In this document: positions 20,314-38,130 of the stretch, piece by piece
Layout of the letters: each line of letters starts with the position of its first letter
Position numbering within the stretch: position 1 is the stretch's first letter
DNA from: a virus
Strand: one strand, 5' to 3'
Length of the DNA: 43,176 bases
IMG/VR virus record: IMGVR_UViG_3300025778_000028
Location: 1 to 43,176 of that record
Program-made: the position numbers and the translations under genes
Notes under the pieces: generated by a model
Database searches by the model: none
The model's input: only the letters and a program-made list of their open reading frames with translations
Told to the model about the DNA's origin: nothing

Positions 20314-20844
20314 ATGGCAGTTCTAGGAATTAATGACTTTAAGTCAAAACTAATCGGTGGTGGAGCACGTAACAACTTATTCGAAGTTACGTGTAACTTC
20401 CCAGCCTATGCAGGTGGAGATAGCGAACTCGCTTCCTTCCTGATCAAAGCTACTCAGTTACCAGCATCCACAGTTACACCAATCACGATTCCATTTCGTG
20501 GTCGTCACTTAAATATCGCTGGAGATCGTTCATTCGATCCTTGGGGTATCACAATCATCAACGATGCAGATATGTCAATCCGTAATGCTTTCGAGCGTTG
20601 GGTAGGCAATATCAATAACAACGTTGATAATACAGGTCTTGTCGATCCAGCAACTTATATGGTAGACATGGCAGTATCCCAACTCGATAAAGCAGGAGAA
20701 GTTACAAAGCAATACGTTATCCGTGGCGCTTGGCCTTCAGCCGTATCAGCTATCGATTTAAGCTACGATTCAGAAAACGCGATCGAAGAATTCACAGTTG
20801 AATTACAGATGATGTACTGGGAATCTCCAGAATCAGCTGTTTAA
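20314..20844 (+). CDS. 19: gp19 tail tube protein
   Basis: 176 residues (T4 gp19 is 163). Recognised by the opening GINDFKSKLIGGGARNNLFEV, then FLIKATQLPASTVTPITIPFRGRHLNIAGDR, WGITIINDADMSIRNAFERWVGNIN and a C-terminal EEFTVELQMMYWE. The protein forms hexameric rings stacked as the inner tube through which DNA passes. It has one of the clearest Shine-Dalgarno sites in the window (AGGAGA, 7-8 nt before the ATG) and is followed by a strong terminator, as suits a very abundant virion protein. Confidence 0.95.
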   Translation: MAVLGINDFKSKLIGGGARNNLFEVTCNFPAYAGGDSELASFLIKATQLPASTVTPITIPFRGRHLNIAGDRSFDPWGITIINDADMSIRNAFERWVGNINNNVDNTGLVDPATYMVDMAVSQLDKAGEVTKQYVIRGAWPSAVSAIDLSYDSENAIEEFTVELQMMYWESPESAV

Positions 20845-26515: not shown

Positions 26516-26980
26516 ATGAGTAATTTAACAAGTCAGCTCAACTACCTTTCGCCAACAGGGTTTAAGGTTACAATCAATTCGTCGCAGTTTGCTAATATGG
26601 AGTATTTTTGCATTAAAACCTCAGTGCCTATGATCAGTCTCGCCGAGGTTTCTCTTCCATACAAATCAATGCCGAATTATGTTTCAGGCGAACGTTTGGA
26701 ATGGTCTCCATTTGATATGACTTTTCAAGTATCAGAATTTCTTGAGAACTATCTTGAGCTTTATAATTGGATCACGAAGAACTCTCAGATCGATCAATTC
26801 GTAAAGTCTGATATGATCCTTTCGATTCTTGATTCTCACAACAATGTATCAAAACAAATACGATATGTTGATGCATTTCCTGTTTCAGTAGGATCCATAG
26901 ACTTACATACTCAAAATACAGACGTTGAATACGTGACAGTTGACGCTTCTTTCAGATATTCTTACTTCGAATTCTTATAA
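26516..26980 (+). CDS. Tail-tube-like (gp19/gp54-fold) virion protein
   Basis: 154 residues. The order of elements (PTGFKVTINSSQFANMEYFCIKTSVP, then SLAEVSLPYKSM, VSGERLEWSPFDMTFQVSEFLENYLELYNWITKN, then a C-terminal YVTVDASFRYSYFEF) parallels the gp19 of this phage. gp19 has the same series: FxVT, then FxIKxxxxP, then an IPFRG loop, then ITxxxDxxMxIRNAFERWV, then a terminal EFTVELQMMYWE. A second tube-fold protein in T4 phages is gp54, the baseplate-tube initiator, and the tube terminator gp3 is also usually encoded hereabouts in marine relatives. Either role is possible. It has its own late promoter, so it is virion-associated rather than part of the recombination operon. Confidence 0.65.
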   Translation: MSNLTSQLNYLSPTGFKVTINSSQFANMEYFCIKTSVPMISLAEVSLPYKSMPNYVSGERLEWSPFDMTFQVSEFLENYLELYNWITKNSQIDQFVKSDMILSILDSHNNVSKQIRYVDAFPVSVGSIDLHTQNTDVEYVTVDASFRYSYFEFL

Positions 26981-27676: not shown

Positions 27677-29215
27677 ATGGATGTATTGAAGATCAAGAAG
27701 AAGAATGAAGTGTTTATCACTGTCGATTGCGATTCAGGAGTCGCTCAGGAACTCTCTGAATTCTTTACTTTCTTCGTTCCAGGATATAAGTTCATGCCCG
27801 CTTATCGGAATAAGTTTTGGGACGGTAAGGTAAGATTATTCAATACGAAAGATCGCACGTTATACGCAGGACTCGTTCCATACCTGAAAGAATTTGCCGA
27901 GGTTCGTAAATGTGAACTCGAGTTTCTTGACGATAATTACTATGGAAGGATCGATTCGGAGATCCTTATTCAAGACACTGAACTGAATCAATTCATTCAA
28001 GACTTAAATCTTTATGCCCATAGTAAACAGATTGAGGTAAGGGATTACCAATTAGATGCAGTTGTTCAGGTTCTGACTCATACAAGAAAATTACTTCTAA
28101 GTCCAACTGCTTCTGGTAAATCTCTTATCATTTACATTCTACTTCGTTGGTATCTAAGTAAGATAAAGAGCCAGCATCATGAGAAAGTGCTAATCATTGT
28201 ACCTACAACATCTCTTGTTGAGCAGATGTATAAAGACTTTGGAGATTATTCAACGAATGATGATACCTGGAATCATGAGGAGTCTTGCCATAGAATCTAC
28301 TCAGGAAAAGAAAGAATCAATGTCCAGCAAGAGGTAATTATTACAACCTGGCAATCGATCTACAAGATGCCTCCTACTTGGTTTGAACCATTTCGAATGG
28401 TGATAGGAGATGAAGCCCATAACTTTAAAGCGAAGTCTTTATCCTCGATCATGGAGAAGTTAAGGGATTGTAAGTATCGTATAGGAACAACTGGAACTCT
28501 GGATGGAACTCAAACGCATAAACTCGTGCTTGAGGGTTTATTTGGTCCAGTCTATCAGGTGACGACGACAAAAGCACTGATTGATTCAGATGCCTTGTCA
28601 GAACTTGAGATATCGATTCTCCTACTTAAGTACGATGATAAATACTGTCAGGAATTGAAAAAGAAATCTTATCAAGAAGAAATCGACTTCCTGGTAAGCT
28701 ATATCCCTAGAAACAAATTTATTCGTAACTTAGCTCTTGCACAAGAAGGAAATACTCTTATCCTCTATAACTATGTTGAAAAACATGGCAAGCCTATCTA
28801 CGACATGATACAAAAGAAGCTATTAGAATCAGCCAGACCTTCAGCAGCAAGAAAGCTGTTCTTTGTATCTGGTTCTGTCGAAACCGATGAGAGAGAAAGA
28901 ATTCGTTCCATCACTGAGGGTGAGAAAGATGCAATCATTGTAGCATCAATGGGAACTTTCTCTACAGGTATCAATATTCGAAATCTTCATAATATCATAT
29001 TTGCTTCTCCCTCAAAGTCTCAAATTCGAGTTCTACAATCAATTGGTAGAGGACTTCGTAAAGCAGATAACAATCAAGGAACAAAGGTATTTGATATCGC
29101 AGATGATCTTCATTGGAAGAAACATCGGAACTATACGTTGGATCATGCAGCAGAGAGAATTAAAATCTATTCCAAGGAAAAATTTAGCTACGCAATCCAT
29201 GAGGTAAACATATGA
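27677..29215 (+). CDS. uvsW: UvsW recombination helicase
   Basis: 512 residues (T4 UvsW is 503). The N-terminal domain (FFTFFVPGYKFMPAYRNKFWDGKVRLFN) is the UvsW-specific DNA-binding part. Helicase motifs follow: SPTASGKSLI (Walker A, about 142-151), GDEAHNF (DEAH, 244-250), TTGTLDG (motif III), then in the second RecA domain ASMGTFSTGINIRNLHNII (motif V) and QSIGRGLRK (motif VI). It unwinds R-loops and branched intermediates and helps the switch from origin-dependent to recombination-dependent replication. Its stop overlaps the next start as ATGA. Confidence 0.95.
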   Translation: MDVLKIKKKNEVFITVDCDSGVAQELSEFFTFFVPGYKFMPAYRNKFWDGKVRLFNTKDRTLYAGLVPYLKEFAEVRKCELEFLDDNYYGRIDSEILIQDTELNQFIQDLNLYAHSKQIEVRDYQLDAVVQVLTHTRKLLLSPTASGKSLIIYILLRWYLSKIKSQHHEKVLIIVPTTSLVEQMYKDFGDYSTNDDTWNHEESCHRIYSGKERINVQQEVIITTWQSIYKMPPTWFEPFRMVIGDEAHNFKAKSLSSIMEKLRDCKYRIGTTGTLDGTQTHKLVLEGLFGPVYQVTTTKALIDSDALSELEISILLLKYDDKYCQELKKKSYQEEIDFLVSYIPRNKFIRNLALAQEGNTLILYNYVEKHGKPIYDMIQKKLLESARPSAARKLFFVSGSVETDERERIRSITEGEKDAIIVASMGTFSTGINIRNLHNIIFASPSKSQIRVLQSIGRGLRKADNNQGTKVFDIADDLHWKKHRNYTLDHAAERIKIYSKEKFSYAIHEVNI

Positions 29216-29643
29216 ACGATCTAATCCAAGAAGCCTCATTGATACTTAAACTTGTCTCAGGTGATACACTTATATGCCAAGTGATTAAAGACAGCGATGA
29301 TAACATATTCATACGTGATCCATATCTAATTAATTTGCATCAACAAAATGAAGAAGATGGAGTACATGTCGTTGCCTATTACTCAGAATGGTTCATGTCC
29401 ACAGACTCTCGAATTCATGTAATTAGAAAACAGCACGTCATTTCTGCTGCAATACCAGATTCTAGAACAAAAGAAGACTACCAATTGATAGTGCAAAGAA
29501 AAGAATTAGCAATTCTAAATGCTACAAAGAATAACAATAACGGTAAGACTACTCAATCTTCTTCTCCATTTGAGGATCTCAACTACAAGTTTAATAACCA
29601 TTCGAGTAATAAGAAATATCCTCATGATAGATCAAATAATTGA
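29212..29643 (+). CDS. Sm-like fold candidate protein (143 aa)
   Basis: The first about 90 residues (ASLILKLVSGDTLICQVIKDSDDNIFIRDPYLINLH, then VVAYYSEWFMSTDSRIHVIRKQHVISA) follow the pattern of an Sm fold: a first strand ending in SGD/E, bent strands, then a loop and terminal strands. The protein at 41209-41505 has the same layout (VRLTSGEEILCDL, LKLPAVIIP, LPYARNEAVQISTKYVVFIV). The C-terminal about 50 residues are Asn/Ser/Lys rich (ATKNNNNGKTTQSSSP) and probably disordered. It is coupled to uvsW by ATGA. Sm-like proteins of cyanophage type are known; RNA binding here is untested. Confidence 0.55.
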   Translation: MNDLIQEASLILKLVSGDTLICQVIKDSDDNIFIRDPYLINLHQQNEEDGVHVVAYYSEWFMSTDSRIHVIRKQHVISAAIPDSRTKEDYQLIVQRKELAILNATKNNNNGKTTQSSSPFEDLNYKFNNHSSNKKYPHDRSNN

Positions 29644-29773
29644 TATTCTCCAATTCCTGTATTCTGCTTTTCCCTGTATCACTAGATACAAAATAACGGC
29701 TTTTTAGACAGATGTAAAACTTATTGTAATGTTTTTGAAACGAAACTATTGAATTGAAATTAATACTATAATG

Positions 29774-29802
29774 TTTACAATCTCGATATTTTATAATATA
29801 AT
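29774..29802 (+). promoter_or_regulatory. Early promoter for gp55
   Basis: TTTACA (29774-29779), 17 nt, TATAAT (29797-29802): the strongest sigma-70-like promoter in the window. The start is expected near 29809, leaving a 24-nt leader before the gp55 ATG. The preceding gap (29644-29773) is very AT-rich and holds only a weak 6-bp hairpin at 29675-29690. Confidence 0.75.
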
Positions 29803-29832
29803 GTAGATAATTAACATAGATAGACTTATATC

Positions 29833-30465
29833 ATGCCTATGACTGACAACCAAATTTTAATTAATACACCTCCAAAGAAAACTACGCTAGCTGCAAAGCG
29901 CGAGGGTGTACACTACGTAAACAACAAAGAATTTTCACAGGCAGTCGTAGACTATGTGAAGTCTGTGAAAGCGGCTCAATTAAATAACGTTGAGGTTCCT
30001 CGTATAACCGAATATATTGGCAGATGCTTTCTTCGAATTGCTGAGGGATTATCTCATAAACCAAACTTTATTCGATATACTTATCGTGAGGAGATGGTTA
30101 TGGATGGCGTAGAGAACTGTATTAAAGCCATCATGAATTATAATGTAGAAGCCGCAACACGAACTGGTAATCCAAATGCGTTTGCCTACTTTACACAGAT
30201 TTGCTATTACGCTTTCATACGTAGAATCATGAAAGAAAAGAAGCAGCAAGATATCAAGTTTAGATACATTGAGCACGCTGGAATTGAGAACTTCTTAACG
30301 AATCCTCAAGAAGAAATGAAAGGTGCAAATGCTATGCTTGGTGGAATTGAGAATGGATTCATTGATGTTCTCAAGAAGAGAATTGATAAAGTTAAAACCA
30401 CAGATAAAGCAATTAAAGAATTTAAGAAAGCAAATAAAGCTATCTTAGAATTATTCATGGAATGA
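29833..30465 (+). CDS. 55: gp55 late-transcription sigma factor
   Basis: 210 residues (T4 gp55 is 185). The core FIRYTYREEMVMDGVENCIKAIMNYN, then NAFAYFTQICYYAFIRRIMKEKKQQD corresponds to sigma region 2, which binds the RNA polymerase coiled coil and melts the -10. This is the part of gp55 that reads TATAAATA. Late boxes throughout this window are its expected targets, together with the clamp gp45 as activator. No obvious gp33 coactivator gene is seen here. The basic C-terminal helices (VLKKRIDKVKTTDKAIKEFKKANKAI) fit a core-binding tail. The stop overlaps gp47 (ATGA). Confidence 0.92.
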   Translation: MPMTDNQILINTPPKKTTLAAKREGVHYVNNKEFSQAVVDYVKSVKAAQLNNVEVPRITEYIGRCFLRIAEGLSHKPNFIRYTYREEMVMDGVENCIKAIMNYNVEAATRTGNPNAFAYFTQICYYAFIRRIMKEKKQQDIKFRYIEHAGIENFLTNPQEEMKGANAMLGGIENGFIDVLKKRIDKVKTTDKAIKEFKKANKAILELFME

Positions 30466-31511
30466 AATTAGCTATCTTAAATGATACTCATTCGGGTGTC
30501 AGGAATTCTTCGGATATCTTCCTTGATTATCATGGTAAGTTTTATTCCGAGGTATTCTTTCCATACTGCGAAAGCAATGGGATCAAACAGATCCTGCACC
30601 TAGGAGACTTTTATGATCACCGAAAGTACATCAACTTTCGTGCTCTGAATCATAACCGTAAAGTCTTTCTCGAGCCTATGCGTGAACTTGGTATGACGAT
30701 GGATATCATACCTGGAAATCACGACGTGGTTTATAAGAATACGAATGACCTATGTTCTCTAAAAGAATTATTAGGATTCTTTTTAAAGGATGTGAATATT
30801 ATCATGCATCCTAAAGTGATGAACTATGATGGATGTAAGATAGCATTACTCCCATGGATCAATCCTGAGAACTTAGACGAGTCAATGAAGTTCGTAGAAA
30901 CATGCGATGCTTCAATACTTGCAGCACATTTAGAATTATCTGGATTTGATTATATGCCAGGTATGCCAGCACCACACGGAATGGATCCAGCACTCTTTTC
31001 TCGATTTGAAAGTGTTTGGTCTGGACATTATCACACAAAGTCTGAGAAGGGAAACATACACTATCTCGGAACACAATACGAGATGTCGTGGAGTGATGCA
31101 GGAGATCCTAAGTACTTTCATGTATTCGATACAGATACAAGAGAATTAACTCCAGTTCTGAATCCTCATACGATCTATGCTAAGTTATATTACAATGACG
31201 ACAAGAAGGTCTATTCAAATCTTAAAAATAAGTTTGTCAAAGTAATCGTTACTAACAAGAGCAATCCTGTTGAATTTGACAAGTTTGTGGATCGTATCCA
31301 GAAGCAAGAACCATTTGAAATTAAAATCGCTGAGAACTATGAAGAGTTCCAGGGAGAGAATATAAGTGATGAGGATGTAGAAGTCGTATCAGACACTTCA
31401 GTCTTATTAGATACTTATGTAGATGCAGTTCAAACTGCTTTAAATAAAGATAGAATCAAAACTAAATTACGAGAGTTATACATAGAAGCTCAATCCTCTG
31501 AATTTGCATGA
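30462..31511 (+). CDS. 47: gp47 recombination nuclease subunit (Mre11/SbcD-like)
   Basis: 349 residues (T4 gp47 is 339). All phosphoesterase motifs are visible: LNDTHSG (Asp8, His10), LGDFYDHR (Asp49), PGNHD (85-88), AAHLELSG (His156) and SGHYH (188-191), which coordinate two metal ions. With the ATPase gp46 it resects broken ends and degrades host DNA for recombination-dependent replication. ATGA overlaps join it to gp55 upstream and to gp46 downstream, so late sigma and the nuclease share one message from the gp55 promoter. Confidence 0.96.
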   Translation: MKLAILNDTHSGVRNSSDIFLDYHGKFYSEVFFPYCESNGIKQILHLGDFYDHRKYINFRALNHNRKVFLEPMRELGMTMDIIPGNHDVVYKNTNDLCSLKELLGFFLKDVNIIMHPKVMNYDGCKIALLPWINPENLDESMKFVETCDASILAAHLELSGFDYMPGMPAPHGMDPALFSRFESVWSGHYHTKSEKGNIHYLGTQYEMSWSDAGDPKYFHVFDTDTRELTPVLNPHTIYAKLYYNDDKKVYSNLKNKFVKVIVTNKSNPVEFDKFVDRIQKQEPFEIKIAENYEEFQGENISDEDVEVVSDTSVLLDTYVDAVQTALNKDRIKTKLRELYIEAQSSEFA

Positions 31512-33217
31512 TATTATTTGAAAAAGTGAAATGGAAGAACTTCCTCTCAACAGGAGATAAGTTCACTGAGATTGATCTGAACAATGGAGAATCTACATTA
31601 ATTGTAGGTGCAAATGGTTCAGGTAAATCCACCCTTCTTGATGCAATTGCATTTGCTTTATTTGGTAAACCTCACCGTGACATCAAGAAGAACCAGATCG
31701 TAAACTCAATCAACAATAAAGATTGTGTAGTTGAGGTCGAGTTCTCATTAGGTAATAATCACTTTCGAGTCATTCGTGGAATCAAGCCAAATGTATTTGA
31801 GATCTGGCAGAACGATCAATTACTTAATCAAGAGTCTCATACTCGAGATTATCAGAAGATACTTGAACAAAATATCTTAAAGCTGAACCATAAGTCTTTT
31901 CATCAGATCGTGATGCTTGGATCAAGCTCGTTCATTCCTTTCATGCAGCTTCCTGCACAGCATCGAAGGGAAGTCATTGAAGATCTCTTAGACATCAATA
32001 TCTTTACAAAGATGAATCAGCTCCTGAAAGAGAAGTCCTCGACTCTTAAGGATCAAATCTCTGAGCTTGGATACGAAGCTGATGTGATTGCTGAAAAGGT
32101 AAGAATGCAATACAAGTATATTGCTGATCTCAAGAATCTCGATAAAGAGCAAGACGAGAAGAGACAAGAAAAGATCACTATACTTGAAGAACAAGTAGAT
32201 ACACTTTTAAAGAAGAACCAAGAGCTTACGGTTCTTGTTGAAGAGAACTATTCACATCTCCAGAAACAATTAGATGAATCTACGTCTCTCAAACAAAAGC
32301 TACTCTCAAATAAATCCTCGATTAATACTGATATTGCAGCTATTGTAAAAGAAGCAAAGTTCTATGATAGTAATGATGAATGCCCTACTTGTGCACAACC
32401 AATTGATTTAAACTTTAAGAAAGATAAGATTCATAAATGCAAGAGTAAAGCTTCTCAACTTGCAAAGGATCAAGCTACTCTTGAAAAGACTCTTGAAGAA
32501 GTGAATAAGTCTATTGCAGGTGTCACTGAAAGTATCAACGACGGTAAGACGTTTAACACTGAGATTCTTACAAATAACGTCACGATACGCAACCTCCAGA
32601 AGCAAATCAAAGAATTAGAAAAAGAAGCATCGACAAAAAAGAATATCGATCTCGAAGCTTCAGAGAAAGAACTCCAGACTCTTACACTCAAACAGACTGA
32701 GATAGGAACTCAGAAGAATTCATTATACGAGGAGAGTACGTATAATCAAGCAATCGCAGAGATGTTAAAAGATACTGGCATTAAGACGAAGGTTATTAAG
32801 CAGTATCTTCCGGTGATGAATAAGCTGATTAATCAATATCTTCAAACTTTAGATTTCTTCGTGTCATTTCATTTAAATGAAAGCTTTGAGGAGACCATTA
32901 AGTCCAGGCATCGCGATGACTTCTCATACTCTTCATTCTCGGAAGGAGAGAAGCAAAGAATCGACCTTGCATTATTATTTACTTGGAGACAGGTTGCAAA
33001 GATGAAGAATTCTGTGAGTACGAATCTACTCATTCTTGATGAAACATTTGACTCATCTCTTGACTCAGATGGAGTAGATAATCTTCTGAGAATATTACAG
33101 ACTTTAGATGAAAACACCTCGGTATTTGTGATATCACATAAAACCGATATTTTAGATGGAAAATTTAAGAATAAGATAGAGTTCTATAAAGAGAAAAACT
33201 TCAGCTTTTCTAAGTAG
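31508..33217 (+). CDS. 46: gp46 recombination ATPase subunit (Rad50/SbcC-like)
   Basis: 569 residues (T4 gp46 is 560). ABC-type ATPase head halves flank a coiled coil. The order is GANGSGKSTLLDAIAFALFG (Walker A, about 34-53), a long coiled coil, a zinc hook CPTC at about 292-295, the returning coiled coil, the signature SFSEGEKQRIDLALL (about 475-490), then LLILDETFDSSLD with Asp511 and Glu512 (Walker B). The short coiled coil is normal for phage gp46. It powers the gp47 nuclease during double-strand break resection. Confidence 0.96.
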   Translation: MILFEKVKWKNFLSTGDKFTEIDLNNGESTLIVGANGSGKSTLLDAIAFALFGKPHRDIKKNQIVNSINNKDCVVEVEFSLGNNHFRVIRGIKPNVFEIWQNDQLLNQESHTRDYQKILEQNILKLNHKSFHQIVMLGSSSFIPFMQLPAQHRREVIEDLLDINIFTKMNQLLKEKSSTLKDQISELGYEADVIAEKVRMQYKYIADLKNLDKEQDEKRQEKITILEEQVDTLLKKNQELTVLVEENYSHLQKQLDESTSLKQKLLSNKSSINTDIAAIVKEAKFYDSNDECPTCAQPIDLNFKKDKIHKCKSKASQLAKDQATLEKTLEEVNKSIAGVTESINDGKTFNTEILTNNVTIRNLQKQIKELEKEASTKKNIDLEASEKELQTLTLKQTEIGTQKNSLYEESTYNQAIAEMLKDTGIKTKVIKQYLPVMNKLINQYLQTLDFFVSFHLNESFEETIKSRHRDDFSYSSFSEGEKQRIDLALLFTWRQVAKMKNSVSTNLLILDETFDSSLDSDGVDNLLRILQTLDENTSVFVISHKTDILDGKFKNKIEFYKEKNFSFSK

Positions 33218-33220
33218 TTG

Positions 33221-33236
33221 ATTATCAACAACTTAT
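33221..33236 (+). repeat. 16-bp inverted repeat arm upstream of the VWA gene
   Basis: ATTATCAACAACTTAT here is the exact reverse complement of 35430-35445, which lies just past the end of the VWA gene. Each arm lies 15-25 nt upstream of a promoter-like sequence, so both may be operators. Confidence 0.8.
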
Positions 33237-33250
33237 AATACACATATTTG

Positions 33251-33279
33251 TGTACTTTTTTCGTGGAATTAAGTAATAT
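33251..33279 (+). promoter_or_regulatory. Promoter for the VWA/peptidase-like gene
   Basis: TGTACT (33251-33256), 17 nt, TAATAT (33274-33279), with a start expected at about the ATG at 33286. The sequence CATATTTGTGTACT (33243-33256), which includes the -35, recurs at 35463-35476. CGTGGAATTA (33262-33271) recurs inverted at 35476-35485. Confidence 0.5.
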
Positions 33280-33285
33280 ATTTCT

Positions 33286-35433
33286 ATGAACAAATTACAT
33301 CAAGGCCAATCGGTATTAGCTAAGTTGTTATCCAAAGAGAATATATCTATACAACACGGCAATTTTCAAACCGCTTTCTTCGATGTACAGAACAGAGTTC
33401 TAGGTCTTCCAATTTGGAAGGATGCCGATAAGGATATCTATGACTTATTAGTGGGTCATGAGGTCGGTCATGCTCTTTATACTCCAGTATTTAATCCAGC
33501 TGAGCTTCCATGTCCTAAAGATTACATAAACATCGTGGAGGATGTTCGTATTGAAAAATGCATTCAAGAGACTTATCCTGGTCTTATTGCATGCTTCCGT
33601 AGAGGTTATAAGACTTTAGTCGATCAGAATTTCTTCGGAACACGAAATCGCGATCTTAGCACCTATGGTCTTATCGATCGTATCAATCTTCATGCAAAAG
33701 CAGGTGCTTATCTAAATATCAAGTTTTTACCTGAAGAAAAAGCTATCGTGGATCAAGTCATGAACGTATCGACTTGGGAAGAAGTTATGGCAGCTGCAGT
33801 TGCCCTTCATAAGTTCGCCCATGAGGAGAAGAAAAAGAATCCTGAAAAACCTTCACCATCTAATACTCAATCCTCTGAGCAGTCTCCTTCTTCTCCATCA
33901 GAATCTATGGAGAATGGGGATTCTTCTGAACAAACCGAAACTGATCAAGAATCATCAGAGTCTGAGTCAGGTGATTCTCAAGATGAATCCTCAGAATCTA
34001 AATCTACTTTAGATAAAGCTAGCGCTTCAGAAAAATTAGATGAATCTGAAACTTCACGCCACTTTGAGAATAGTGCTAAAGAATTAATAAAGGATCCAAA
34101 GATTGCAAATCGTACTGCTTATGCCATTGAGCCTTCAATGGAAGATATTAATAATATGATATGCAAATACGAAAAAGTGTTCTCTCTGAGAGATGAAAGT
34201 GAGATTTATAAAGAACTATCTAATTCATCGCAATTTAAAGCTGAATATAAAGAATTTTTAAATAACACCAAGAAGTTTGTTGCAGTATTAGTTAAAGAAT
34301 TTGAAATACGTAAAGCTGCTTATCAATACAGCAGATCTACAACCTCAAAGACCGGAATCCTTAATGTAGATAAGATTCATTCATACAGCTATAGTGATGA
34401 CATATTTCTAAGTGTTACTTCTCTTGCTAATGCCAAGAATCATGGTATGATGATGTTTGTAGATTTTTCTGGTTCAATGGGTAAAGTTCTCCCATATGTT
34501 TTAAAACACCTTATTAATCTATGCTTATTCTGTAAGTCAGCTGGAATTCCTTTTCAAGTTTATAGTTTCTCTGGTGGAACTTATGCCTCACTTGTAGCAA
34601 AGGATCCACGTTATTCCTATTCAAAATACCATTCTTGGGGTGAAGGACGTGAAGGTAAGATCACTACAGAACAAGTTATTCTCTTAGATTTAGTCAATTC
34701 TGAGATGAGTAAGGCTGATTTCAATAGAGCAATTCGTGATTTGTATATTCGTAGCAAGAGACCAGAAAGCGCATGTGCAGCAGTTGAATATCTTGGAGAC
34801 ACACCATTAAACGAAACTATCATTGCTGCCCATAAGCTGGTTCCATTATTCAAAGCCAAACATAATATTCAAAAAATGAATGTGATGTTCCTTACAGATG
34901 GAGAAGGTAATTGTCTTTCTATTAAAAGCGATCCAAACTATAAAAATGTAAAATTCGATAAGTCTTGGAATGATTCTTACAACTATATCGAAATGAAGTT
35001 AAACGGTCAGCACTTCAAATCAGAACTTTATGGAGAATATTGCTCTCAGAAATTATTCAAGCATTTAAGAAAAACGACTGACTGCAATCTAATTGGATTT
35101 TATATACCAAAACAAAAAAGTGTTGCTAAGAAACTTGCTATCGACATCATTCGTGGAAAGAATGGTAACAACTGGCAATCAGCTACAAATATGTGGAACT
35201 CAACTTATCAAGCAAAGTATCGTGCTGATAAATCCATTCATTTTGAGGAGGCTCTTGGATATAACGAATACTTTATCGTGGCAAGTGGCGATGAATTAGA
35301 TACTTCAGATGAGAGCTTAAACATTGACCAATCCATGAGCCGAGGCCTAATGGCTAAAGCATTCTCTAACTTTAATAAAGCCAAAAAGGTTAACCGGGTG
35401 TTTGTGACTAAGTTCGCTGAGGCACTTGCATAA
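33286..35433 (+). CDS. Metallopeptidase-like and VWA-domain protein (CobT-like partner of an AAA ATPase)
   Basis: 715 residues. An N-terminal domain has LLVGHEVGHALYTP, a zinc-peptidase HExxH (His58, Glu59, His62). INIVEDVRIEK at about 81-91 could supply the third ligand, as in gluzincins. Next comes a Ser/Glu/Asp-rich linker (about 184-260), then helices, then a VWA domain. MMMFVDFSGSMGK carries the MIDAS Asp393-x-Ser395-x-Ser397, GDTPLNET offers Thr506, and VMFLTDGEGN ends the site (about 534-542). The layout resembles VWA partners of MoxR/CobS-type AAA ATPases, and such an ATPase is the next gene. The pair probably remodels or cleaves a host or phage target. Real peptidase activity and the substrate are unknown; the cobalt-chelatase name should not be taken as function. 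Confidence 0.75.
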   Translation: MNKLHQGQSVLAKLLSKENISIQHGNFQTAFFDVQNRVLGLPIWKDADKDIYDLLVGHEVGHALYTPVFNPAELPCPKDYINIVEDVRIEKCIQETYPGLIACFRRGYKTLVDQNFFGTRNRDLSTYGLIDRINLHAKAGAYLNIKFLPEEKAIVDQVMNVSTWEEVMAAAVALHKFAHEEKKKNPEKPSPSNTQSSEQSPSSPSESMENGDSSEQTETDQESSESESGDSQDESSESKSTLDKASASEKLDESETSRHFENSAKELIKDPKIANRTAYAIEPSMEDINNMICKYEKVFSLRDESEIYKELSNSSQFKAEYKEFLNNTKKFVAVLVKEFEIRKAAYQYSRSTTSKTGILNVDKIHSYSYSDDIFLSVTSLANAKNHGMMMFVDFSGSMGKVLPYVLKHLINLCLFCKSAGIPFQVYSFSGGTYASLVAKDPRYSYSKYHSWGEGREGKITTEQVILLDLVNSEMSKADFNRAIRDLYIRSKRPESACAAVEYLGDTPLNETIIAAHKLVPLFKAKHNIQKMNVMFLTDGEGNCLSIKSDPNYKNVKFDKSWNDSYNYIEMKLNGQHFKSELYGEYCSQKLFKHLRKTTDCNLIGFYIPKQKSVAKKLAIDIIRGKNGNNWQSATNMWNSTYQAKYRADKSIHFEEALGYNEYFIVASGDELDTSDESLNIDQSMSRGLMAKAFSNFNKAKKVNRVFVTKFAEALA

Positions 35434-35445
35434 GTTGTTGATAAT
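35430..35445 (+). repeat. 16-bp inverted repeat arm upstream of the AAA ATPase gene
   Basis: ATAAGTTGTTGATAAT is the exact reverse complement of 33221-33236. It overlaps the TAA stop of the VWA gene (35431-35433) and lies 25 nt before the -35 of the next promoter. Confidence 0.8.
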
Positions 35446-35470
35446 TAATTGCTTAAAATTATCATATTTG

Positions 35471-35499
35471 TGTACTAATTCCACGGTATTTGTTAGAAT
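35471..35499 (+). promoter_or_regulatory. Promoter for the CobS/MoxR-like ATPase gene
   Basis: TGTACT (35471-35476), 17 nt, TAGAAT (35494-35499) with TGT before it (extended -10). The start is expected near 35506, with a leader of about 32 nt. It shares 14 nt (35463-35476) directly, and 10 nt (35476-35485) inverted, with the VWA promoter region. Confidence 0.6.
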
Positions 35500-35537
35500 C
35501 TTCTTGTTAGTAAATCTTCTTCTTCTTAATCAATAAC

Positions 35538-36677
35538 ATGAATACATACTCCAAACAAATCATTGCTCAACTCCAGAGCAATTTCCCTGATCAAACTCAG
35601 TTCCGTCGTAAAGATATTGATGCAGTTGCAAAGTCTCTAGGCTTTGAGTTTAAGCAATACTCAGAACTTTTAAATGATACTTATAAAGTGCATCGTGGTC
35701 TATACGACTACTCTTCACAACTTAAAGCTGAAATCACTATTCCAGCTGAAGCTGCAATGAAGCTATCGGCGCCTGTCACTTCTGTTCTTAATACAGATAC
35801 GTATATCCCTGCTAAAGATCCAACATACATTAAGTGGGGTGATTATTCAGATATCGCCGACATCATTAAATCAAAAGCTTTTTATCCAATCTACATCGCA
35901 GGTCTTTCAGGTAATGGTAAGACTATGATGGTAGAGCAAGCGTGTGCAAATCTCGATAGAGAATACATACGTGTTCAAATTTCCCCAGAGACGGATGAAG
36001 ACGATCTCATCGGAGGTTTTCGTCTACTCAATGGTGAGACAGTATTCGCGAAAGGCCCCGTAGTAAAAGCTATGGAGCGCGGAGCCATACTTCTCGTGGA
36101 TGAGATAGACCGTTCAACCAGCAAGATTATGTGCCTCCAAGGAGTATTGGAAGGTAAACCGATCATGATTAAGAAGACCGGTGAAGTCATTCGTCCGGCT
36201 CTGGGGTTCAATATTATAGCTACTGCAAACACAAAGGGTAAAGGTTCAGATGATGGAAGATTCGTTACTGCAAGTATCATTGATGAAGCTTTCCTTGAGA
36301 GATTTGTTGCAACATTCGAGCAACCATATCCTACACTTAACGTAGAGAAAAAGATCGTCCTCAATCATATGGACAAATATCGTCGAATTGACGCAGATTT
36401 TGCCGAAAAGCTTGTCACATGGTCTGAGGTTATTCGTAAGACCTATGCAGCTGATGGAGTCGATGAATTAATTTCAACTCGTAGATTATGCCATATTGCT
36501 CAAACATTTGCAATCTTTAACGATCGCATGAAAGCTATTCAACTTTGTATATCACGATTCGATGAAGATACGAAAGTAGCTTTCCTAGATCTATACACCA
36601 AGATAGATGCTTCTTCCACAACAGCAAAAGTGCCAGAAGTTATAGTATCCCCTGAATCAATTGCTCCAGCAAATTAA
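35538..36677 (+). CDS. cobS: MoxR/CobS-type AAA+ ATPase
   Basis: 379 residues. The AAA+ core has AGLSGNGKTMMVE (Walker A, about 121-133), ISPETDEDDLIGGFRLLNGETVFAKGPVVKAM (the MoxR-type pre-sensor region), GAILLVDEIDRS (Walker B, about 182-193), NIIATANTKGKG (sensor 1) and DEAFLERF (arginine-finger region, about 249-256). The N-terminal about 90 residues form a separate helical module. Cyanophage homologues are called CobS after the cobaltochelatase subunit, but MoxR-family ATPases more generally remodel proteins together with VWA partners. The VWA protein directly upstream is that partner. No cobalamin gene is present in the window. Confidence 0.88.
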   Translation: MNTYSKQIIAQLQSNFPDQTQFRRKDIDAVAKSLGFEFKQYSELLNDTYKVHRGLYDYSSQLKAEITIPAEAAMKLSAPVTSVLNTDTYIPAKDPTYIKWGDYSDIADIIKSKAFYPIYIAGLSGNGKTMMVEQACANLDREYIRVQISPETDEDDLIGGFRLLNGETVFAKGPVVKAMERGAILLVDEIDRSTSKIMCLQGVLEGKPIMIKKTGEVIRPALGFNIIATANTKGKGSDDGRFVTASIIDEAFLERFVATFEQPYPTLNVEKKIVLNHMDKYRRIDADFAEKLVTWSEVIRKTYAADGVDELISTRRLCHIAQTFAIFNDRMKAIQLCISRFDEDTKVAFLDLYTKIDASSTTAKVPEVIVSPESIAPAN

Positions 36678-36713
36678 TTCAACACTGAAAGTATTCTCCT
36701 ACACATTTGATTA

Positions 36714-36742
36714 TTTACAAGGTGCAGGACTTAGTGTATATT
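36714..36742 (+). promoter_or_regulatory. Early promoter for the small HTH-like gene
   Basis: TTTACA (36714-36719), 17 nt, TATATT (36737-36742). The expected leader of about 69 nt before 36818 contains two imperfect copies of a GTAAACTT motif (36753-36760 and 36772-36779). Confidence 0.6.
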
Positions 36743-36817
36743 AGAATTTACAGTAAACTTCGATCCCTACTGTAAACTTGAATGAAGGATCGAGCCAACA
36801 TATATAAACGTTATAAC

Positions 36818-37036
36818 ATGAAGACCGCTCGTACAAATCAGAAAACTCGTTTGTTTAACTATCTTACTAAGAATAAGACAGTGACAATCGCTCAAGCACA
36901 AGCTCGTTTGAACATCGCTAATCCATCAGCTGTGGTAGCACACATGCGCAATGATGGCGTAAGCATTCGCACAAGCGTCCGCTTTAACAAGCAGGGCAAC
37001 AAAGTGTTTGAATATTGCTTAGCTTCAACTAAGTAA
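36818..37036 (+). CDS. Small winged-helix/HTH-like protein (72 aa)
   Basis: The product begins MKTARTNQKTRLFNYLTKNKT, continues VTIAQAQARLNIANPSAVVAHM, then RNDGVSIRTSVRFNKQGNKVF. The series helix, then TIAQAQARLNIANPSAVVAHMRNDG, then a beta hairpin fits a winged helix-turn-helix, and it is Arg/Lys-rich (pI clearly basic). Short proteins of this kind are common in marine T4-like phages. An in-frame ATG at 36782 would add MKDRANIYKRYN; I prefer 36818 because the HTH pattern begins there, but cannot exclude the longer form. It follows its own early promoter, so it may be an early regulator. Confidence 0.7.
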   Translation: MKTARTNQKTRLFNYLTKNKTVTIAQAQARLNIANPSAVVAHMRNDGVSIRTSVRFNKQGNKVFEYCLASTK

Positions 37037-37049
37037 TATAAACTGAGAA

Positions 37050-37080
37050 GAGACTGGAGGACTCTATATCCTCCAGTCTC
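37050..37080 (+). other. Perfect 12-bp hairpin without T run
   Basis: GAGACTGGAGGA (37050-37061) pairs exactly with TCCTCCAGTCTC (37069-37080) around the 7-nt loop CTCTATA. AT-rich sequence without a clear T run follows, then the ATG at 37092. A leaky terminator or an RNA processing or stability element are options. Confidence 0.85.
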
Positions 37081-37091
37081 TAATTAATCTT

Positions 37092-37433
37092 ATGGCAAAA
37101 ACAATAGAACCTCCTAAATTAAATTCTATACCAGCTACAGCTGGACGTAAGTTTGATGGAGGTAAGCCGGAATACGGTCTTATTCCTCCCTATGCTCTCG
37201 ATGAACTTGCTGTAGTGTTGACTATTGGAGCTCAAAAGTATGAGAGAGAAAATTGGAGGTATGTTCCAGAAGCAAGTAGGAGATACTACGATGCTTTACA
37301 AAGACACTTATGGGCTTGGAAAAGAGGCGAAAAATTTGATGCCGAAACAGGACGTCACCATCTCGCTCATGCGGCATGTTGCTTATTCTTTTTATATGAA
37401 CATGACATTGGTAAAGCAAATCCTGATATATAG
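37092..37433 (+). CDS. dATP/dGTP diphosphohydrolase-like protein (DUF5664-type)
   Basis: 113 residues. Diagnostic is the run GRKFDGGKPEYGLIPPYALDELAVVLTIGAQKYERENW, then RYYDALQRHLWAWKRGEKFD and TGRHHLAHAACCLFFLYEH. This matches the N-terminal domain family of phage dATP/dGTP diphosphohydrolases (recalled as PF18909/DUF5664), all-alpha nucleotide pyrophosphatases. Glu and His of HLxAW, ETGRHHLAHA and related helices would bind metal and phosphate. A role in adjusting dNTP pools before replication is likely, and gp45 follows directly. The same fold (MazZ) occurs in phages making 2-aminoadenine DNA, but no PurZ or DatZ is seen here. Confidence 0.78.
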   Translation: MAKTIEPPKLNSIPATAGRKFDGGKPEYGLIPPYALDELAVVLTIGAQKYERENWRYVPEASRRYYDALQRHLWAWKRGEKFDAETGRHHLAHAACCLFFLYEHDIGKANPDI

Positions 37434-37445
37434 ACAATCTTTATT

Positions 37446-38117
37446 ATGAAACTATCCGAAACAACATTAGATGTACTGAAAAACTTTTCAGTCATCAATC
37501 CTAACATGGTCTTCAAGCCAGGTAAGACCATTTCAACTATTGCAGAAGCTAAGAATATACTTGCAAATGCAAAGATTGAAGAAGAGATCCCATCACAGTT
37601 TGGTATCTATGATCTTACAGAATTTCTTTCAACACTTTCTCTTGTAGATAATCCTGATATTGAATTCACCGATGATTCAATATCGATTAATGAGGGTAAT
37701 ACCTCAATCCGTTATTATTACTCTGCTCCAGAGTTATTAACTGCACCTACAAAGCCATTGAATATGCCAAAGGCTGAAGTGAAGTTTACTCTATCTGCGG
37801 CAATGATTAATAAGATTAAGAAAGCTGCATCTGTATTAGGTCACGCTACACTACAGATTACTGGTGAAGATGGTAAAATTACTTTATCAGTTAGTGATGT
37901 AAAGAATGCTTCAGCGAATAAGTATTCAATGATAATTGACGAGGATAATTCTTGTAAAGAAACTTTTTCTTTTATCATGGTCATTGGTAACTTAAAGATG
38001 ATGCCAGGCGATTATAACGTTGCAATAAGTTCTAAACTTATCTCTCACTTCGAGAATACAACTATACCAGTTGAATACTGGATAGCTCTTGAAAAAACTA
38101 GCACATACGGTAGCTAA
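37446..38117 (+). CDS. 45: gp45 sliding clamp
   Basis: 223 residues (T4 gp45 is 228). Recognised from MKLSETTLDVLKNFSVINPNMVFKPG, FGIYDLTEFLSTLSLVDNPDIEF, VKFTLSAAMINKIKKAASVLG and a C-terminal strand ending EYWIALEKTSTYGS. Trimeric processivity clamp for gp43, and in T4 phages also the mobile activator of late transcription with gp55 and gp33. The gene precedes the loader subunits gp44 and gp62, as in T4, but here it is separated from them by two small genes and a terminator. Confidence 0.93.
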   Translation: MKLSETTLDVLKNFSVINPNMVFKPGKTISTIAEAKNILANAKIEEEIPSQFGIYDLTEFLSTLSLVDNPDIEFTDDSISINEGNTSIRYYYSAPELLTAPTKPLNMPKAEVKFTLSAAMINKIKKAASVLGHATLQITGEDGKITLSVSDVKNASANKYSMIIDEDNSCKETFSFIMVIGNLKMMPGDYNVAISSKLISHFENTTIPVEYWIALEKTSTYGS

Positions 38118-38122
38118 TCTTA

Positions 38123-38130
38123 TATAAATA
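38123..38130 (+). promoter_or_regulatory. Late promoter TATAAATA inside the replication cluster
   Basis: A perfect late box 6 nt after the gp45 stop. The start is expected near 38136, giving a leader of about 84 nt for the gene at 38220 that contains two hairpins. Confidence 0.65.

Follow-up and report, generated by a model that had tools for sequence, protein, structure and literature searches.

The stretch of viral DNA analysed here (the window, 43,176 nucleotides; positions 1 to 43,176 of IMG/VR record IMGVR_UViG_3300025778_000028) contains two adjacent genes that encode a 715-residue protein with a VWA domain and a 379-residue MoxR/CobS-type AAA+ ATPase. Profile searches with the proteins of the window identified it as a contig of a T4-like phage. 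From the sequence alone, a first-pass annotation had described in the longer protein an HEVGH motif with a possible third ligand, an acidic Ser-rich linker and a complete metal ion-dependent adhesion site (MIDAS), and in the shorter one the motifs of a MoxR/CobS-type AAA+ ATPase; both descriptions were confirmed by the comparisons presented below. The features of the pair are the following (AF2, AlphaFold2; pLDDT, predicted local distance difference test):

33286..35433, + strand: 715-residue protein with a zincin-type N-domain, an acidic linker and a VWA domain (PHROG 459 'peptidase', CobT superfamily); open reading frame with ATG start, phrog_459 match, conservation
33286..33834, + strand: N-terminal metallopeptidase-like domain, residues 1-183; AF2 model, fold and profile comparisons
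33457..33471, + strand: HEVGH, residues 58-62, with predicted zinc ligands H58 and H62 and predicted catalytic E59; invariant in 58/58 relatives
33538..33555, + strand: EDVRIE, residues 85-90, E85 being the predicted third zinc ligand; invariance, helix 78-96
33844..34038, + strand: acidic Ser-rich disordered linker, residues ~187-251; pLDDT < 50
34462..34476, + strand: DxSxS of the MIDAS (D393, S395, S397); invariant in 58/58 relatives, VWA fold matches
35538..36677, + strand: 379-residue MoxR/CobS-type AAA+ ATPase (PHROG 249); open reading frame with ATG start, phrog_249, Pfam AAA_5 and CbbQ_C matches
35901..35924, + strand: Walker A of the ATPase, residues 122-129; G122, S124, G125, G127, K128 and T129 invariant

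Conserved motifs and predicted structure

Conservation was evaluated in 58 non-identical T4-like relatives of the VWA protein and in 56 CobS relatives of the ATPase. In the VWA protein, H58, E59, G61, H62, N82, E85, D86 and R88 were invariant (58/58), and likewise I89 of EDVRIE; the same was observed for D393, S395, S397, T506, D538 and G539, T506 and D538 being the residues that complete the MIDAS. Since these residues do not vary among 58 non-identical relatives, the motifs cannot be attributed to chance. The C-terminal end is also nearly invariant (F710 and A715, 98%). The protein displays the gluzincin signature, that is, HExxH and a downstream invariant Glu on a second helix, suggesting that H58, H62 and E85 may bind zinc and that the domain may be catalytic. 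In the ATPase, Walker A (G122..K128-T129), Walker B (D188-E189), R255 and R315/R316 were invariant.

The 715-residue protein matched phrog_459 over nearly its full length (residues 8-715, E = 3.4e-176) and no Pfam family, even at E < 1. With the T4-like VWA protein, NCBIfam gave weak VWA matches only, and a profile search of the PDB returned low-complexity matches on the acidic linker only. DUF2201 (Pfam PF13203, a putative metallopeptidase of MoxR-linked VWA proteins) was considered as the closest cellular family and discarded, as no PF13203 match was found in the window. The ATPase matched phrog_249 ('porphyrin biosynthesis'; residues 40-362, E = 1.8e-111) and Pfam AAA_5 and CbbQ_C, and its profile search matched Midasin, CobS and NorQ.

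The full-length model of the VWA protein (pLDDT 76) begins with an N-domain that is helical apart from a small region of strands, followed by a disordered linker and a VWA domain, and its fold matches in the PDB were VWA domains, including that of NorD in NorQD complexes. When the N-domain was modelled alone, the mean pLDDT was 89.4 (AF2), and the model shows strands at residues 21-25, 31-33 and 38-42, a helix bearing HEVGH (49-65) and a second helix bearing E85 (78-96). The six best fold matches of this domain in the PDB were ArdC and selecase (E 0.3-0.9), with PprI in 13th place. Because the E-values (0.3-2) are not significant, we take these matches as a consistent hint and not as proof. 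As in the minigluzincins ArdC, selecase and PprI/IrrE, a helix carrying an invariant Glu comes after HExxH; unlike them, the domain of the window is part of a protein that also has a VWA domain and whose partner is an AAA+ ATPase.

Of the 74 IMG/VR loci whose sequence extends far enough downstream, 73 have the ATPase gene directly 3' of the VWA gene in the same orientation; the sole exception (L070) is a fragment. Among annotated phages, the genus-name counts are equal for both genes (365 Synechococcus, 61 Cyanophage, 24 Prochlorococcus), these being totals that were not matched record by record. PHROG 459 ('peptidase') and PHROG 249 ('porphyrin biosynthesis/CobS') are a known core pair of the T4-like cyanophages (Kyanoviridae), where the same families occupy the same gp46/gp45 position (Syn1); the VWA protein of the window is ~29-42% identical to the cyanophage forms over the aligned pieces. 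The first-pass annotation had regarded the function as undescribed, a statement that does not hold: members of the two families are present in more than 450 phage records and were discussed in print twice in 2021 (PMC7824862, PMC8651126). What is new here is the evidence that separates the competing functional readings, namely peptidase with a role in virion assembly, and CobT.

Relation to the CobT superfamily

In one of these publications, cyanophage cobT was considered to be 'mistakenly annotated as a peptidase', and hijacking of the host CobN was proposed (PMC8651126). We compared the T4-like profile with the N-domain of the CobT-like proteins of rhizobiophages and phage-plasmids, and hhalign gave an E-value of 3.8e-17, with HExxH and the E-D...I-E motif lined up in the alignment. 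These CobT-like proteins matched Pfam CobT_C (PF11775) in 21/21 cases and Pfam CobT (PF06213) in 15/21, and their profile matched the solved VWA domain of CobT in the PDB at 2.7e-46. This solved CobT was found using a CobT fragment as query, and its residues are given as in the PDB chain. Since the T4-like family is linked through phage intermediates to the CobT of Pfam and the PDB, the labels 'peptidase' and 'CobT' name one superfamily, comprising members that, judged by their motifs, would be catalytic and others that would be dead.

The window protein had no direct match to Pfam CobT or CobT_C above the cut-off, and the best E-value among 29 relatives was 0.13 (CobT). The N-domain aligned directly with the canonical CobT N-domain at non-significant E-values (0.16 and 0.056), one of these alignments pairing EDVRIE with EQARVE; therefore, the canonical domain was reached only via intermediates. 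The use of the OC-phage CobT as query revealed no further relatives among viral contigs.

The HExxH motif is intact in nearly all full-length members of the rhizobiophage and phage-plasmid types. In contrast to the HEVGH of the window protein, all of the 80 cellular CobT N-domains sampled, nearly all of them from Hyphomicrobiales, lack the motif and are of the GDSMALR type. The solved cellular CobT keeps a DxSxS VWA domain. The first-pass annotation had anticipated that homologues losing HExxH would argue against a peptidase; this loss never occurred in the 58 close relatives, but it did in cellular CobT, in nickieviruses and in an Acinetobacter element.

In the nickieviruses (L086, L094-L100), HExxH is replaced by S/AEISK or SEVSK, and in Acinetobacter p5736 by QEVAK; in all of them, the MIDAS and the ATPase neighbour are kept. 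These proteins are natural dead-peptidase variants and would be useful controls. Given that the zinc site varies while the MIDAS is kept, peptidase activity would be an add-on that can be separated from an unchanging AAA+/VWA core. Additionally, on Citrobacter pE51_001, a Salmonella IncA plasmid and Methylomonas pFW12EY, genes for a MoxR ATPase and DUF3150 lie next to recT/bet and exonuclease genes, and two of these three plasmids also encode an HExxH-VWA protein (HEAAH...EDLRIE / EDVRIE). These loci are possibly a recombination-linked version of the module.

Genomic context and proposed role

In the window, the gp13-gp23 head, neck and tail genes, uvsY, uvsW, gp55, gp47 and gp46 precede the pair, and genes for a winged-helix protein, a dGTP diphosphohydrolase-type protein, gp45, gp44, Hsp20 and gp43 lie 3' of it. 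The block order gp55-gp47-gp46-[pair]-gp45-gp44 is that of the relatives, where 46/46 loci have gp45 no more than 4 kb downstream of the pair and 34/49 have gp46 no more than 4 kb upstream. Unrelated elements (RHph_N1_10, phiK7B1, p7.2.1, p5736, pE51_001, the IncA plasmid and pFW12EY) carry the pair or distant relatives of it next to genes for sigma factors, exonuclease or ssb, or next to dnaE or recT/bet.

To score promoters, we counted matches out of 12 to TTTACA-N16-18-TATAAT (sigma70/T4-early type), with dinucleotide shuffles as control. Scores of at least 10/12 were obtained upstream of the VWA and ATPase genes in 24/47 and 26/50 relatives, respectively, versus 8.7% and 7.9% of the shuffles, and scores of at least 11/12 in 11/47 and 14/50, versus 0.5% and 0.7%. 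The late motif (A/T)ATAAATA is present in the window in the gaps before the fibre, gp13, gp18, gp19, gp20 and gp21 genes, and no intergenic copy was found from 28645 to 38123.

We consider that the two proteins very probably constitute an AAA+/VWA remodelling system; the architecture and the conservation support this part of the first-pass annotation, which had proposed an ATP-driven VWA/MoxR machine. The closest mechanistic model is NorQD, whose structure by cryo-electron microscopy shows a finger of the VWA protein in the AAA+ pore, its C-terminus in contact with the ATPase and an ATP-driven rotation by which the linker between the VWA and N-domains is stretched; it has been suggested that the MIDAS grips the substrate (PMC13036017). 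The VWA fold matches NorD and the ATPase profile matches NorQ, as in NorQ-NorD and other MoxR AAA+/VWA chaperones; however, the phage pair has no membrane oxidase target gene nearby and has an extra zinc-peptidase-type domain. By analogy, the VWA domain would dock on the pore of the MoxR-type ring and the MIDAS would grip an acidic residue of a specific target, while ATP hydrolysis would shift the VWA domain relative to the N-domain on the other side of the acidic linker. The target would thus be remodelled, and a segment of it probably presented for zinc-dependent clipping. Remodelling with probable clipping is proposed because the phage protein has the general parts of NorQD plus a zinc-type N-domain beyond a flexible linker.

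The pair would then represent a peptidase-intact branch of the CobT/CobS superfamily, a MoxR-type AAA+ ring with a VWA partner bearing an intact minigluzincin-type domain, made early together with the replication and recombination genes. Its target may be a protein of that stage, such as the phage replisome, the Mre11/Rad50-like complex or a host factor. The motifs make it reasonably probable that the N-domain is an active peptidase, and gene order and promoters tilt the balance slightly toward action at the replication or host-takeover stage. For the reading as a whole, in which the pair works early at that stage, uses ATP to remodel its target and probably also clips it, we put the chances at about even. 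Several observations weigh against it. The two promoters of the window phage score 8-9/12 only (read from L002, whose protein is 100% identical) and seven relatives have a late-type motif 5' of the VWA gene, so early expression in this phage would follow only by extension from its relatives. The pair persists without HExxH in the nickieviruses and the Acinetobacter element, and peptidase activity therefore cannot be the universal core function. The fold matches of the N-domain are not significant, and gene linkage speaks to timing and inheritance, not to the target.

The published proposal for the group 2.2 jumbo phages (ASV44728/ASV44729), in which a MoxR-vWA pair has a fused metallopeptidase, is a role in virion assembly, by analogy with a tail-assembly MoxR-VWA system of an archaeal virus (Iyer et al. 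2021, PMC7824862). Judged by the description in that paper, domain order and gene pairing are alike. Under this proposal, the pair would be a chaperone for head or tail, with the zinc domain processing structural proteins, and the presence in the same region of Hsp20, a proposed capsid chaperone, and the seven relatives with a late-type motif agree with it. However, the pair lies inside the gp55-gp44 block described above, the late motifs of the window precede structural genes and not the pair, the relatives have early-type promoters, and the phage encodes its own head maturation protease, gp21. Members of the superfamily also neighbour recombination genes on the IncA-type, Citrobacter and Methylomonas plasmids, two of which encode an HExxH-VWA protein. 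Gene order and promoters favour the replication stage, and we regard virion assembly as improbable. Of the roles suggested by the first-pass annotation, host takeover and DNA metabolism are consequently the better fit, and virion maturation the poorer one.

A viral cobaltochelatase CobST as put forward by Liu et al. (2021), in which cobalt insertion with a borrowed host CobN would provide more cobalamin for making nucleotides, appears quite improbable, although the homology is real, as indicated by the Pfam (CobT_C 21/21, CobT 15/21) and PDB (2.7e-46) matches of the distant phage relatives, and cyanobacterial hosts can have CobN (positive control, Synechococcus elongatus). The pair resembles the aerobic cobaltochelatase CobS/CobT (PDB 9uka series) in its CobS-type AAA+ protein and, via phage intermediates, in the CobT-type order of N-domain, acidic linker and VWA. 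In contrast, the T4-like family stays below the Pfam CobT cut-off (best E 0.13) and retains the HExxH that is absent from 80/80 cellular CobT N-domains, and CobN, the only cobalamin gene sought there, was not found in any of 13 related records, of which six are IMG/VR contigs and seven are phage genomes. A class II reductase was tested as a reason for a B12 need and rejected: NrdJ matches were below the cut-off in all of these records (0/13), whereas the class I subunit NrdB was encoded in 10/13, so no phage B12-dependent reductase explains a need for CobST. Hijacking of the host CobN is possible. These results support the doubt that the first-pass annotation had cast on the cobalamin label, and, as it stated, the window has no cobalamin gene.

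It is also conceivable, albeit unlikely, that the pair is a pure remodelling chaperone in which the HExxH zinc is structural or the site vestigial and only the AAA+/VWA activity matters. The loss of HExxH with retention of the MIDAS in the nickieviruses and p5736 is in line with this, as is cellular CobT, which lacks the motif and whose solved form has a DxSxS VWA; on the other hand, H58, E59, H62 and E85 are invariant in the T4-like relatives (58/58) and, with few exceptions, kept in the full-length proteins of rhizobiophages and phage-plasmids, and a structural zinc site would have no need of the catalytic Glu. Our best reading rejects both a cobalt chelatase and a protease of virion maturation. 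More tentatively, and with doubt outweighing confidence, the pair could be an early, ATP-driven, site-specific protease that remodels and clips either one replication or recombination partner or a factor of host defence. It would then exemplify a wider, so far unrecognised module linked to replication and recombination, common to T4-like phages, phage-plasmids and conjugative plasmids, and cellular CobT may have arisen from this module by loss of the zinc site.

Among the auxiliary metabolic genes that marine cyanophages are held to have taken from their hosts, cobS is classed as core, and it is used to mark communities (PMC3037559, PMC9983427). Should the partner of cobS be a zinc-type VWA protein and the pair be part of the replication stage, then one of the most widespread cyanophage genes is likely mislabelled as a cobalamin gene. 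A single superfamily with catalytic and dead members would also reconcile the conflicting published readings, and a direct genetic test becomes possible in tractable phage-plasmids.

Flanking repeats and other features of the window

A repeat search revealed two features in the gaps around the VWA gene:

33208..33236 and 35430..35458, + strand: arms of a 29-nt, 86% inverted repeat flanking the gene of the 715-residue protein
33243..33255 and 35463..35475, + strand: 13-mer CATATTTGTGTAC, two exact copies, one 5' of each gene

The position of the 13-mer suggests a promoter-proximal element of both genes. The gaps on either side of the VWA gene (33208-33285 and 35430-35540) share copies of one element, and such copies were also observed in relatives: 30-nt direct in L014 (9879/12219), 33-nt inverted in L010 (9888/12246), 47-nt direct in L020 (7949/10258), and in L045 (9881/12342). 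The copies are identical or nearly so inside one phage, differ between phages and were found nowhere else in the loci scanned; a shared promoter/operator and a recombination scar are candidate explanations. RNA structure in these gaps was not convincing (z ~ -1.6 to -1.8).

Elsewhere in the window, a strong terminator-like hairpin (13 pairs) is located at 37049-37081, between the winged-helix and dGTP diphosphohydrolase-type genes. The tail-tube family phrog_45 was matched by two genes (20314-20844 and 26516-26980), one in the usual place and the other after gp23.

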